This document shows positions 4,999 through 34,973 of a DNA stretch of 34,973 nucleotides, one piece after another; positions within the stretch are counted from its first letter, which is position 1, and every line of letters begins with the position of its first letter. Below the pieces are notes generated by a model. The model was not told where the DNA came from, ran no database searches, and was given only the letters and a program-made list of their open reading frames with translations. The position numbers and the translations under genes are program-made. The DNA comes from Ramlibacter sp. (GTDB lineage Bacteria > Pseudomonadota > Gammaproteobacteria > Burkholderiales > Burkholderiaceae_C). Location of the stretch: the NCBI GenBank assembly GCA_022844525.1, contig JALHLO010000013.1, positions 1-34,973 on the forward strand, in the 5' to 3' direction.

Positions 4999-5298
4999 AT
5001 GGAAGAGGACATCGAGGCCCTCAAGCGGGAGGTGCAGCACCTCATCGCGATGCACACGGCTTCCTACGTGACCATCACCTCCCTGGTGGCCACGCACCCG
5101 CATCCCGAGCACCTGCAGCTGCACCTGGTCAGCGCGCTGGAAGGCGTGCTGGGCTCGGAGCGGCTGGCGAACTGGACGGACGAGCAGAAGCAGATCGTGC
5201 GGCGGGTGGTGGAGACCTTCCAGAACGTGAAGCCGGCGGCGCCGATCGATCCCTTGAAGGCGGCGTTGGGGGATCGGGATCCCCGGCAGTTGCCCTAG
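4999..5298 (+). CDS. Hypothetical protein (99 aa)
   Basis: MEEDIEALKREVQHLIAMHTASYVTITSLVATHPHPEHLQ...; good AGAGGA Shine-Dalgarno; stop TAG lies in a REP-like element. Confidence 0.7.
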   Translation: MEEDIEALKREVQHLIAMHTASYVTITSLVATHPHPEHLQLHLVSALEGVLGSERLANWTDEQKQIVRRVVETFQNVKPAAPIDPLKAALGDRDPRQLP

Positions 5299-5374
5299 GT
5301 CGCGGTGAGCCCGCAGGCGAACCGCCACACCGCTACAGCGGCGCCGCGGTCCGCGCGGCGGACCACGACCTACA
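5295..5374. repeat. REP-like inverted pair, TAG feet outward
   Basis: CTAGGTCGCGGTGAGCCCGCAGGCGAACCGCCAC ... GGCGCCGCGGTCCGCGCGGCGGACCACGACCTACAG, with a central CCGCTACAGCGG hairpin. Confidence 0.75.
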
Positions 5375-6557
5375 GGAACAAGCCCTGCAGGTCCGACAGG
5401 AAATCGAAGCCCCGCTCCGTCGGCCGCACCCGCGCGAAGTCGCGCTCGATCAATCCCCTGGCCTGCGCTTCCTGCAGCTGCTTTTCGATCGCCGACAAGG
5501 GCAGGCCGGTGCGCTGGGTGAAGTCCTGCAGCGCGAAGCCTTCCCGCAGGCGCAGCGCGTTGAGCATGAACTCGAAGGGCAGGTCGGCGCGCGCGACGTC
5601 CTCGTCCTGCGCCAGCGCGTTGCCCGCCAGCGCGTTGTCCATGTAGAGCTTCGGTTCGCGGTTGCGCACCTGCCGCACCACGCGGTTCGGGAAGCTGATC
5701 TTGCTGTGCGCGCCGGCGCCTATGCCCAGGTAGTCGCCGAACTGCCAGTAGTTCCAGTTGTGCCAGCAGCGGTGGCCCGGCTTCGCGTACGCCGAGACCT
5801 CGTAGCGCTCCAGGCCGGTGGCGGCGGTCATCTCCGTGATGCGGTCCAGCATCGCGTAGGCCAGGTCATCCGCCGGAACGACCGGCGGGAACTTGGCGAA
5901 ATAGGTGTTGGGCTCGATCGTGAGGTGGTAGATCGATAGGTGCGGCGGCATCAGCGCCAGCGCCTGCGTGACGTCCTGTTCCAGCTGCTCCAGGCTCTGG
6001 CCCGGCAGCGCGTACATCAGGTCGATGTTGAAGGTCTCGAAGCTGGCGGCGGCTTCCTCCACCGCGGCGATCGCCTGGCCTGCGTCGTGCACCCGCCCGA
6101 GCGCGCGCAGGAAGCCGTCGTTGAAGCTTTGCACGCCGACGGACAGGCGGGTGACGCCGGCGGCGCGGAAGGCCTTGAAGCGGTCCTTCTCGAAGGTGCC
6201 GGGGTTCGCCTCCAGCGTGATCTCGGCATCGGCGGCCAGCTTCACGCGCGCCCGCACGTCGGACAGCAGGCGGTCGATGCCTTCCGGCGAGAACAGGCTG
6301 GGCGTGCCGCCGCCGATGAAGATGCTGTGCACCTCGCGGCCCCACACCAGCGGCAGCGCGGCTTCCAGGTCGGCGCGCAGCGCATCGAGGTAGCGCTGCT
6401 CGGGCATCCCCGACGGGTTCATCTCGTGCGAGTTGAAGTCGCAGTAAGGGCACTTCTTCAGGCACCACGGCAGGTGCACGTACAGCGACAGCGGCGGCAG
6501 CGCCGCCAGCTGCAGCGTGCCGGGCCGCAGGTAGTGCTGGATGTCCTTCACAGCCAT
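5370..6557 (-). CDS. hemW: Radical SAM HemW (coproporphyrinogen III oxidase-like, 395 aa)
   Basis: [45 protein letters not shown]... (CxxxCxxC) and ...FIGGGTPSLFSPEGIDRLL...EANPGTFE. Confidence 0.93.
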   Translation of the reverse strand: MAVKDIQHYLRPGTLQLAALPPLSLYVHLPWCLKKCPYCDFNSHEMNPSGMPEQRYLDALRADLEAALPLVWGREVHSIFIGGGTPSLFSPEGIDRLLSDVRARVKLAADAEITLEANPGTFEKDRFKAFRAAGVTRLSVGVQSFNDGFLRALGRVHDAGQAIAAVEEAAASFETFNIDLMYALPGQSLEQLEQDVTQALALMPPHLSIYHLTIEPNTYFAKFPPVVPADDLAYAMLDRITEMTAATGLERYEVSAYAKPGHRCWHNWNYWQFGDYLGIGAGAHSKISFPNRVVRQVRNREPKLYMDNALAGNALAQDEDVARADLPFEFMLNALRLREGFALQDFTQRTGLPLSAIEKQLQEAQARGLIERDFARVRPTERGFDFLSDLQGLFL

Positions 6558-11811: not shown

Positions 11812-14076
11812 ATGAGCGCGGTGCTCCCACCGGTTTCGGGCAGCGGCAAGCGGCCCAGCAGCCCCATCCTCCCCTCCCCCGCCGCGGCCAATGCCGCAGC
11901 GGCGAGCTTTGCCGCGCTGACCGCCCGCCTGGACTACCTGGACCCGGGCGAAGTGGACCTGGTCCGCAAGGCCTACCGGTTCGCCGACGAGTCGCACCTG
12001 GGGCAGATGCGCGCCAGCGGCGAGCCCTACATCACCCACCCGATCGCCGTCGCCGCGCAATGCGCCGAGTGGAAGCTGGACGCCCAGGCCCTGATGGCCG
12101 CCCTGCTGCACGACGCCATCGAGGACTGCGGCGTCACCAAGCCGCAGCTGATCGAGCGCTTCGGCGCCCCCGTCGCCGAACTGGTCGACGGCCTCACCAA
12201 GCTGGACAAGCTGCAGTTCAACACGCGGGAAGAGAACCAGGCCGAGAGCTTCCGCAAGATGCTGCTGGCGATGGCGCGCGACGTGCGCGTGATCCTGGTG
12301 AAGCTGGCCGACCGCACGCACAACATGCGCACGCTGGAAGACGTGCCGCGCGAGAAGTGGCACCGCATCGCCAGCGAGACCCTGGACATCTACGCGCCGA
12401 TCGCGCACCGCCTGGGCCTGAACACCACCTACCGCGAGCTGCAGGAGCTGTCCTTCCGCTACCTCAAGCCCTGGCGCTACGCGGTGCTGTCCAAGGCGGT
12501 GTCGCGCGCGCGCAGCCGCCGCCGCGACCTGATCCAGAAGGTGCACCGCGACGTGGAGAACGCCTTCGACGCCGCCGCCATGAAGGTGCGCATCGCCGGG
12601 CGCGAGAAGACGCTGTTCTCCATCTACAAGAAGATGGACGAGAAGCACCTGAGCTTCGCCCAGGTGACCGACATCTACGGCTTCCGCATCATCGTGCCGA
12701 CGGTGACCGACTGCTATACGGCCATGGGCCTGCTGCACCAGCTGTACAAGCCGGTGCCGGGCAAGTTCAAGGACCACATCGCCATCCCCAAGATCAACGG
12801 CTACCAGTCGCTGCACACCACGCTGGTCGGGCCCTCGGGCGTGAACGTGGAATTCCAGCTGCGCACCGAAGCCATGCACCTGGTGGCCGAATCCGGCGTG
12901 GCGGCGCACTGGCTGTACAAGGCCAGCACCCCGCAGGAAGAGAACACCGAGCGGCTGGGCACCAAGTGGCTGCAGTCGCTGCTGGACATCCAGAACGAGA
13001 CGCGCGACGCCGCGGAGTTCTGGGACCACGTCAAGATCGACCTGTTCCCCGACGCGGTGTACGTGTTCACGCCCAAGAGCCAGATCCTGGCGCTGCCGCG
13101 CGGCGCCACGGTAGTGGACTTCGCCTACGCCATCCACTCCGACGTCGGCGACCACACGGTGGCGGCGCGCATCAACGGCGCGCAGGTGCCGCTGCGCACC
13201 GAGCTGAAGAACGGCGACGTGGTGGAAGTGGTGACCGCGCCCGTGTCCACGCCCAACCCGGCCTGGCTCGGCTTCGTGCGCACGGGCCGCGCGCGCTCCA
13301 AGATCCGCCATCACCTGAAGACGCTGGCGCAGGCGGAGTCGCAGCAGCTCGGGGAAAAGCTCCTGACCCAGGCGCTGCGCGCCGAGGGCATGGAGAAGCT
13401 GCCGCCGGACAACGACACCTATCACGCGCTGTGGGAAAAGCTGCTGCGCTTCACCGGCAACAAGAGCCGGCCCGAGCTGCTCACCGACCTGGGGCTGGGC
13501 AAGCGCATCGCCGGCATCGTGGCCAAGCGGCTGATGACGCTGCTGGCGGAGATGGGCGAGAAGCCCGATGCCGTGTTGCTCAGCCGCGAGCGCTTCACCG
13601 CGCACGAGAACGTCTCGCAAGGCGGCCTCACGCTGGACGGCAGCGAGAACGCCTCCGTGCAGTTCGCCAGCTGCTGCCGCCCGGTGCCGGGCGACCCCAT
13701 CCTGGGCTATCTCGGCCGCGGCGAGGGCCTGGTGGTGCACACCGCCGATTGCACGGTCGCCAAGCGCCTGCAGCACAAGGACGCCGAGCGCTTCATCGGC
13801 GTGGAATGGGCGGAGGAGCCGGTGCGCTCCTTCGAGACCGGCATCCTGGTGACCGTGGCCAACGGCAAGGGCGCGCTGGCGCGCGTGGCCGCCGCGCTGG
13901 CCACCGCCGAGGCGGACATCACGCACGTGGACATGGACGACGAGCGCGCGCAGGACGCCACGGACCTGCGCTTCGTGGTGGCGGTGCGGGACCGCACGCA
14001 CCTGGAGTCGGTGCTGCGCAACCTGAAACGCACGCCGAGCGTGATGAACGCGGTGCGGATCCGGCCGGGGGGCTGA
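11812..14076 (+). CDS. spoT: Bifunctional (p)ppGpp synthetase/hydrolase (SpoT/Rel)
   Basis: HD hydrolase region (ALLHDAIEDCG), synthetase REKTLFSIYKKM...VTDIYGFRIIV, TGS (YVFTPKSQILALPRGATVVDFAYAIH) and C-terminal ACT; follows gmk-rpoZ. Confidence 0.96.
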   Translation: MSAVLPPVSGSGKRPSSPILPSPAAANAAAASFAALTARLDYLDPGEVDLVRKAYRFADESHLGQMRASGEPYITHPIAVAAQCAEWKLDAQALMAALLHDAIEDCGVTKPQLIERFGAPVAELVDGLTKLDKLQFNTREENQAESFRKMLLAMARDVRVILVKLADRTHNMRTLEDVPREKWHRIASETLDIYAPIAHRLGLNTTYRELQELSFRYLKPWRYAVLSKAVSRARSRRRDLIQKVHRDVENAFDAAAMKVRIAGREKTLFSIYKKMDEKHLSFAQVTDIYGFRIIVPTVTDCYTAMGLLHQLYKPVPGKFKDHIAIPKINGYQSLHTTLVGPSGVNVEFQLRTEAMHLVAESGVAAHWLYKASTPQEENTERLGTKWLQSLLDIQNETRDAAEFWDHVKIDLFPDAVYVFTPKSQILALPRGATVVDFAYAIHSDVGDHTVAARINGAQVPLRTELKNGDVVEVVTAPVSTPNPAWLGFVRTGRARSKIRHHLKTLAQAESQQLGEKLLTQALRAEGMEKLPPDNDTYHALWEKLLRFTGNKSRPELLTDLGLGKRIAGIVAKRLMTLLAEMGEKPDAVLLSRERFTAHENVSQGGLTLDGSENASVQFASCCRPVPGDPILGYLGRGEGLVVHTADCTVAKRLQHKDAERFIGVEWAEEPVRSFETGILVTVANGKGALARVAAALATAEADITHVDMDDERAQDATDLRFVVAVRDRTHLESVLRNLKRTPSVMNAVRIRPGG

Positions 14077-14079
14077 GGC

Positions 14080-14159
14080 GTCGCGGTTCGCCTGCGGGCT
14101 CACCGCGACCTACGACGCCCGATGTAGGTCGTGGTGAGCCCGCAGGCGAACCGCGACAC
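14080..14159. repeat. REP-like inverted pair, GTAG feet facing inward
   Basis: GTCGCGGTTCGCCTGCGGGCTCACCGCGACCTAC gacgcccga TGTAGGTCGTGGTGAGCCCGCAGGCGAACCGCGACAC; near-perfect long inverted repeat between convergent spoT and greB. Confidence 0.88.
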
Positions 14160-14726
14160 TCAGGGTGCCACCGGCGCCGGATACTCCACCTTCAGGATCT
14201 CCACTTCCTTCACCCCCAGCGGCGTCACCAGCTTCACCACGTCCCCTTCGCGCGCCTTCAGCAGCGCCCGCGCGATCGGCGAGACCCAGCTCACCTGCCC
14301 CTGGGCGCTGTCCGCCTCGTCGATGCCCAGGATGGTCACCGTGCGCTCCACGCCCGTGTCCACCTCGGCGTAGGTCACGGTGGCGCCGAAGAACACCTGG
14401 TCGTGCCCGTGGTGCAGCGAGGGGTCGGTCACCTCCGCGATCTCCAGGCGCTTGGTCAGGAAGCGGATGCGGCGGTCGATCTCGCGCAGCCGCTTCTTGC
14501 CGTACAGGTAGTCGCCGTTCTCCGACCGGTCGCCGTTGCTGGCGGCCCAGTGCACCACCTCCACCACCTTGGGCCGCTCGTCGTCGATCAACTGCAGCAG
14601 TTCGGCGCGCAGGCGCGCGTAGCCCTGCGGGGTGATGTAGTTCTTGCCACCGGGCGGCAGGGGCGGCAATGCGCCGCCGTCCTCGTCTTCCTCGGTGTCG
14701 GTCTCGCGCGTGAACGCCTTGCTCAT
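14160..14726 (-). CDS. greB: Transcription elongation factor GreB
   Basis: NYITPQGYARLRAELLQLIDDERPKVVEVVHWAASNGDRSENGDYLYGKKRLREIDRRIRFLTKRLEIAEV.... Confidence 0.94.
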   Translation of the reverse strand: MSKAFTRETDTEEDEDGGALPPLPPGGKNYITPQGYARLRAELLQLIDDERPKVVEVVHWAASNGDRSENGDYLYGKKRLREIDRRIRFLTKRLEIAEVTDPSLHHGHDQVFFGATVTYAEVDTGVERTVTILGIDEADSAQGQVSWVSPIARALLKAREGDVVKLVTPLGVKEVEILKVEYPAPVAP

Positions 14727-18284: not shown

Positions 18285-18379
18285 GGTGTCGCGGTTCGGG
18301 CTGCGCCGCTCACCACGACCTACACGCCCCGTATCCCCGTAGGTCGTGGTGAGCGCGCGCAGCGCCGAACCGCGACACC
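18285..18379. repeat. REP-like inverted pair, GTAG feet facing inward
   Basis: GGTGTCGCGGTTCGGGCTGCGCCGCTCACCACGACCTACA cgccccgtatcccc GTAGGTCGTGGTGAGCGCGCGCAGCGCCGAACCGCGACACC. Confidence 0.85.
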
Positions 18380-34896: not shown

Positions 34897-34973
34897 TGTC
34901 GCGGTGCGGCTTCGCGCGCACCACGACCTACACGGCCACCTGTAGGTCGTGGTGCGCGCGAAGCCGCACCGCG
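34897..34973. repeat. REP-like inverted pair, GTAG feet facing inward (truncated by window end)
   Basis: TGTCGCGGTGCGGCTTCGCGCGCACCACGACCTACA cggccacc TGTAGGTCGTGGTGCGCGCGAAGCCGCACCGCG. Confidence 0.88.

Follow-up and report, generated by a model that had tools for sequence, protein, structure and literature searches.

What fills the gap between spoT and greB in Ramlibacter sp., and how might it have come there? In the stretch of DNA analysed (34,973 nt of a Ramlibacter sp. contig, hereafter the window), the gap is filled by two hairpin monomers in opposite orientation. They are 97% complementary, each reads GTAG-GTCGYGGT-GAGCCCGCAGGCGA-ACCGCGAC, and their GTAG feet face each other across a short spacer (Table 1). 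A sequence-only reading had listed inverted pairs at 5.3, 14.1, 18.3 and 34.9 kb. All four are present; at 5.3 kb, however, the feet lie outside, opposite to the other pairs of the window, and one arm is decayed, and at 34.9 kb the contig ends within the pair. A known structured RNA was rejected as the identity of these repeats: no Rfam family matched at its gathering score, and a weak match to MIR1033 at 18.3 kb resulted from the long inverted repeat alone. We conclude that the repeats are very probably GTAG-tagged REPs of a REPtron, copied by a cognate HUH transposase (TnpA_REP/RAYT, subclass 2.2).

Table 1. Positions of REPs, genes and REP classes. Bare numbers are window positions; G000 is the genome of the window, and other G labels are other Ramlibacter genomes.
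Feature	Location	Strand	Remarks
Decayed REP monomer	5295..5328	(+)	CTAG foot, with its TAG ending the left gene (4999-5298)
REP monomer, perfect-stem subtype	5343..5373	(-)	Head CCGCCGCGCGG; hemW (5370-6551) stops at the TAG of the foot
spoT/relA-family gene	11812..14076	(+)	TIGR00691, 716.6 bits; stop codon 14074-14076, 3 nt before the 14.1-kb pair
REP monomer, left arm of 14.1-kb (best) pair	14080..14113	(-)	Head GAGCCCGCAGGCGA; stem position 5 is C, not T
Spacer between the two GTAG feet	14114..14123	.	10 nt; unrelated to other spacers
REP monomer, right arm of 14.1-kb (best) pair	14124..14157	(+)	Head GAGCCCGCAGGCGA; stem position 5 is T
greB	14160..14726	(-)	TIGR01461, 210 bits; stop codon 14160-14162, 2 nt after the 14.1-kb pair; start uncertain
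REP monomer	18288..18323	(-)	Head GAGCGGCGCAGCCCGA
REP monomer	18339..18376	(+)	Head GAGCGCGCGCAGCGCCGA, unlike its partner 18288..18323; site empty in G013, the nearest sister
REP monomer	34898..34931	(-)	Head GCGCGCGAAGCCGC; GC/GC pairs in place of the GA/GA mismatch
REP monomer	34942..34973	(+)	Head GCGCGCGAAGCCGC, as in 34898..34931; cut by the contig end
Foot TAG as stop codon	G000 C116:1357, C30:7933, C64:1712, C65:4690, C1:10395; window 5295, 5373		
RAYT of G000	C258:157-603		178 aa
Broken RAYT of G004	C23, L231:3376-3708		
Y1 transposase of G000, subclass 2.1 motifs	C11, L032:5019-5723		235 aa
Class I REPs (GTCG-Y-GGT)	RAYT flanks of G000, G032		
Class II and IIb REPs (GCTGG-stem)	RAYT flanks of G013, G009, G024		
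Class III REPs (GCTGGGTT)	RAYT flanks of G019		
Class IV REPs (GCCGGGGT)	RAYT flanks of G016		

The anatomy of the repeat was established on 139 monomers from 345 kb of G000. The foot was GTAG in 128 of these, in keeping with the GT[AG]G foot of REPs; a pyrimidine preceded it in 125 of 138 copies, and AC tended to stand after the hairpin. Above the foot lies a lower stem of 8 bp with one T·G pair, followed by a GA/GA internal loop, a bulged C and an upper stem of 2–4 bp. The T·G pair has been kept at position 5 of the lower stem (T in 131 monomers, C in 6 and G in 2), although C would pair better. In 120/139 monomers the head consists of GA, G, a bulged C, a perfect stem of 2–4 bp, a 3-nt loop, the stem complement, C and GA, and these monomers have the build of long REPs with a bulge (a basal stem of at least 7 bp plus a bulge or internal loop). 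The loop is nearly always GNA (GCA in 85, GAA in 29, GGA in 2), usually in the form C(GNA)G, which is unusually stable in DNA; tandem G·A pairs in a pyrimidine-GA-purine context are also stable in DNA. The four main types of upper stem (CC/GG, GC/GC, GGC/GCC and GCGC/GCGC) differ on both sides, indicating that the hairpin itself is conserved. Some copies carry GC/GC in place of GA/GA, both sides having changed. Folded as DNA, the GTAG strand gave −9.8 kcal/mol and its complement −6.8 kcal/mol.

The exact core, GTAG-GTCGYGGT-head-ACCGCGAC, occurs 173 times in G000, and the reversed-pattern control gave 0 matches, which puts the count far above chance. The monomer first described from sequence, with a GTAG foot, an 8-bp stem containing one T·G pair and variable heads, was borne out in the window. 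The total number of hairpins in G000 is about 200, at gene ends. The 20-nt core was perfect in 114 of the 139 monomers and had one mismatch in a further 19. This low divergence among cores contrasts with a divergence of about 12% over the spoT/greB region between G000, the one assembly of its species analysed, and its nearest sister. G000 contigs C17, C31, C78 and C258, as well as the window (34942-34973), begin or end inside REPs, indicating that the assembly was fragmented by them.

Beyond G000, the exact class-I pattern with real heads was found in 4/60 Ramlibacter genomes (173, 26, 20 and 1 copies), and a stricter class-I pattern matched G000 only in a 400-genome sample of the family that holds few Ramlibacter. 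All matches to the REP pattern in the named GTDB collection belonged to Ramlibacter, and no REPs of this type were found in the other genera sampled. G004 has 140 related REPs that are not of class I, and G009 has 107; G032 has 137 related REPs, class I counted in, and G008 has 382 of class III. No class-II or class-III copies were found in the parts of G000 examined.

The feet lie inside in 37/39 two-copy groups. The sequence-only reading had held that both arms of a pair usually share one head, and that this requires either concerted exchange of heads or movement of whole pairs. Neither claim survived. Both arms carry the same head in 2/4 pairs of the window and in 6/37 clean pairs genome-wide, as compared with 4.5 expected by shuffling (P = 0.27). 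The spacers, 6–68 nt long, share 39 7-mers, as compared with 31.6 ± 6.2 for shuffled spacers. With heads combined at chance level and spacers unrelated, the pairs do not look like descendants of a single doublet, and the inverted doublet does not appear to be the spreading unit, as it would be in a REPIN. Groups longer than pairs are local tandem copies of one arm with its head. Tandem arrays of three to five copies of arm plus spacer, each closed by one arm that points the other way, were seen on C150, C45, C113 and C70; the four left arms of G000 at C45 correspond to one in the sister, with the same heads.

G000 encodes one RAYT of the E. coli type, scoring 179.7 bits to NF047646 (NCBIfam). 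The closest solved structure is E. coli TnpA_REP (4er8; E = 4e-42). The RAYT domain has a class-I REP on either side, at a distance of 56 nt upstream and 86 nt downstream; these two inner copies carry the same head, and upstream there is one more copy, which is decayed. The gene thus sits between REPs of its own class, as had been anticipated for RAYT-type REPs. Its motifs (PDHLH, RFWEH, YIHFNP) place it in subclass 2.2 (Bertels group 2), whose hallmarks are DHLH, WE and YIHYNP in about 165 aa (PMC6006769). The bulged hairpin and YIHFNP exclude subclass 2.5/SMAG, which has a short perfect palindrome and YI[VI]ANP. In the alignment to 4er8, E. coli residues W94, Q95, E100 and H101 are kept, and two REP-contacting residues differ (K82 to Q and R104 to T; residue roles from PMC8266576, PMC6006769). 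NF047646 detected a RAYT in each REP-rich genome tested, at 175–187 bits except in G004, where the gene is broken. Pfam PF01797 (Y1_Tnp) has a cut-off of 23 bits, and the G000 RAYT reaches 15.7, so surveys at that cut-off miss such RAYTs; the absence of a RAYT from the genus, as PF01797 would have it, was rejected on the NF047646 result.

Judged by its neighbours, the RAYT lies at a common locus in nine species (G000, G013, G008, G004, G016, G024, G019, G009 and G032), in inverted orientation in G032. The inversion on G032 contig C58 is possibly a flip by recombination between flanking inverted REPs. Most RAYTs of the eight sister species adjoin the REP classes of their own species (Table 1). 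The exceptions are the broken gene of G004 and a second gene in G008, beside which no REP of these classes was found. The RAYT of G004 is broken and yet 140 REPs are present there, so copies can outlast a functional enzyme for a while. That the REP class changes while the RAYT locus stays fixed is what Nunvar et al. (PMC3686654) named the 'orthoswitch', here seen in another bacterial group.

Twenty further G000 sites were mapped into G013. Twelve were empty in this sister species, one held the same class and six another class, and one was unresolved. Presence and absence between sister species, a RAYT between same-class REPs and hundreds of copies all agree with the assignment to RAYT-type REPs in the sequence-only reading. 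At spoT/greB, G013 has a class-II pair, and G015 and G016 have no REP. The same gap holds other repeats elsewhere, GTCATTCCCGCGAAGGCGGGAATCC-like in G004 and GTCATTGCGAGCTTGACCCGCAATCC-like in G038. At 5.3 kb, G013 again has a class-II pair, and the feet are stop codons in both species, the right one displaced by one codon.

Where two species hold different classes at one site, independent insertions into a few tolerated gaps, rather than switches in place, are the probable cause. Heads differ at most shared sites, and orientation differs between species at C10 and C27, indicating that new insertion at tolerated places also happens; a preference of the transposase for TAG-like targets may explain feet that act as stop codons. 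Site C116 argues against this explanation: the sister matches G000 there in both heads and the order in which they stand, in the rare feet-out layout and in the foot serving as stop codon, whereas the spacer and every lower-stem arm are different. This one clear case suggests, from the compared sequences, that class was switched in place. It is conceivable, but unlikely, that such switching follows a change of RAYT class, in which REPs far from the RAYT gene would acquire new lower-stem arms and keep their foot, heads, orientation and position. Repeated cutting, with repair templated by the new class, would be a possible route. If this were so, the whole REP population would follow the enzyme rather than being replaced by new insertions.

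The REPs are numerous and extragenic, and they stand at gene 3′ ends in inverted pairs. Of 62 sites placed relative to genes called by simple codon usage, 46 lay between convergent genes and 16 between tandem ones, and divergent genes had none; these counts describe 345 kb around about 70 sites that were picked for holding REPs and are not a test against background. Most placed sites start no more than 20 nt from a stop codon, and in seven cases the neighbouring predicted gene terminates with the TAG of the foot. REPs elsewhere are likewise located near gene 3′ ends (PMC3733652).

This location, together with an RNA fold of −79.8 kcal/mol (z = −12.9) for the 14.1-kb pair, would suit pairs kept mainly as RNA, that is, as bidirectional 3′-end hairpins that end or protect convergent transcripts, with spread by transposase secondary. 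We regard this as a possibility, though a rather doubtful one. No intrinsic terminator (GC hairpin plus T tract) was found at 13900-14400, the nearest sister is empty at 12/20 sites, and a symmetric terminator would have no need for the strand-specific T·G pair that is conserved. Purifying selection against other insertions would also leave REPs at 3′ ends.

That the REPs are orphans, spread by the Y1 transposase on C11 or another enzyme, is scarcely credible: PF01797 finds only the C11 gene in G000, and genes of that kind occur in 58/60 Ramlibacter genomes, but a RAYT was detected by NF047646 in each REP-rich genome tested (one broken) and is REP-flanked in most. The motifs of the C11 protein (NHFH, WE, YMDLNP) match subclass 2.1, whose members are not REP-associated (PMC6006769). 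The subclass 2.1 gene is normally single copy and is also present in REP-free species; no REPs of these classes were found within about 5 kb of it (less at contig ends) in 16 genomes, using a pattern that missed some known copies. The C11 transposase was therefore rejected as mobiliser. The NCBI 'REP-associated' model scores it near the cut-off.

Under the REPtron reading, the REPs would be non-autonomous single-strand hairpins copied in the genome by the RAYT. By analogy with relatives in which mobilisation is established, the RAYT would recognise the GTAG strand in its hairpin fold. Three features would give strand specificity, namely the foot, the irregular pyrimidine of the 5′ arm and the bulge in the head; cleavage, strand transfer and the roles of single bases are inferred from solved relatives. 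Insertions would survive where they fall directly behind a stop codon, in most cases with convergent genes on either side, and would there be harmless or mildly useful. Against the REPtron reading stand the pairs, which are unlike one mobile unit, the persistence of REPs in G004 and the two altered contact residues.

The kind of system is known; Ramlibacter, the genus of this soil bacterium, is new for REPtrons in the literature searched, which contained no paper linking the two. It offers a natural series in which one RAYT locus is followed through nine species: at least four REP classes occur there, the gene is broken in one case and lacks REPs of these classes in another, and sister species are near enough for empty sites to be read. 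Two questions can be tested on this series: which features of the hairpin the transposase recognises, and by what route the REPs of a genome come to belong to another class.

The E. coli REPs (GTAG-3) and their TnpA_REP (RAYT group 2, subclass 2.2) likewise combine a GTAG foot, a lower stem and internal mismatches (PMC3733652, PMC8266576, PMC6006769), with a variable upper stem-loop that includes GC/GC and GGC/GCC types, feet-inside pairs, and the transposase motifs [DE]HLH, WE and YIH[FY]NP; stem and head sequences are different in Ramlibacter. Enterobacterial GTAG-3 pairs always join loops of unequal length (PMC3733652), whereas Ramlibacter heads are combined at random within pairs. Pseudomonas REPINs (PMC3116915) also occur mostly as close inverted pairs with a cognate RAYT, but the arms and spacers of the Ramlibacter pairs bear no sign of descent from one paired unit. 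Stenotrophomonas REPs (SMAG, SM1-SM13; PMC3686654) share the GTAG foot, the inverted pairs and the orthoswitch at RAYT loci; they have perfect palindromes of 8–9 bp beside the foot, loops that are very short, and RAYTs of group 3, whereas those of Ramlibacter are bulged hairpins with group 2 RAYTs.
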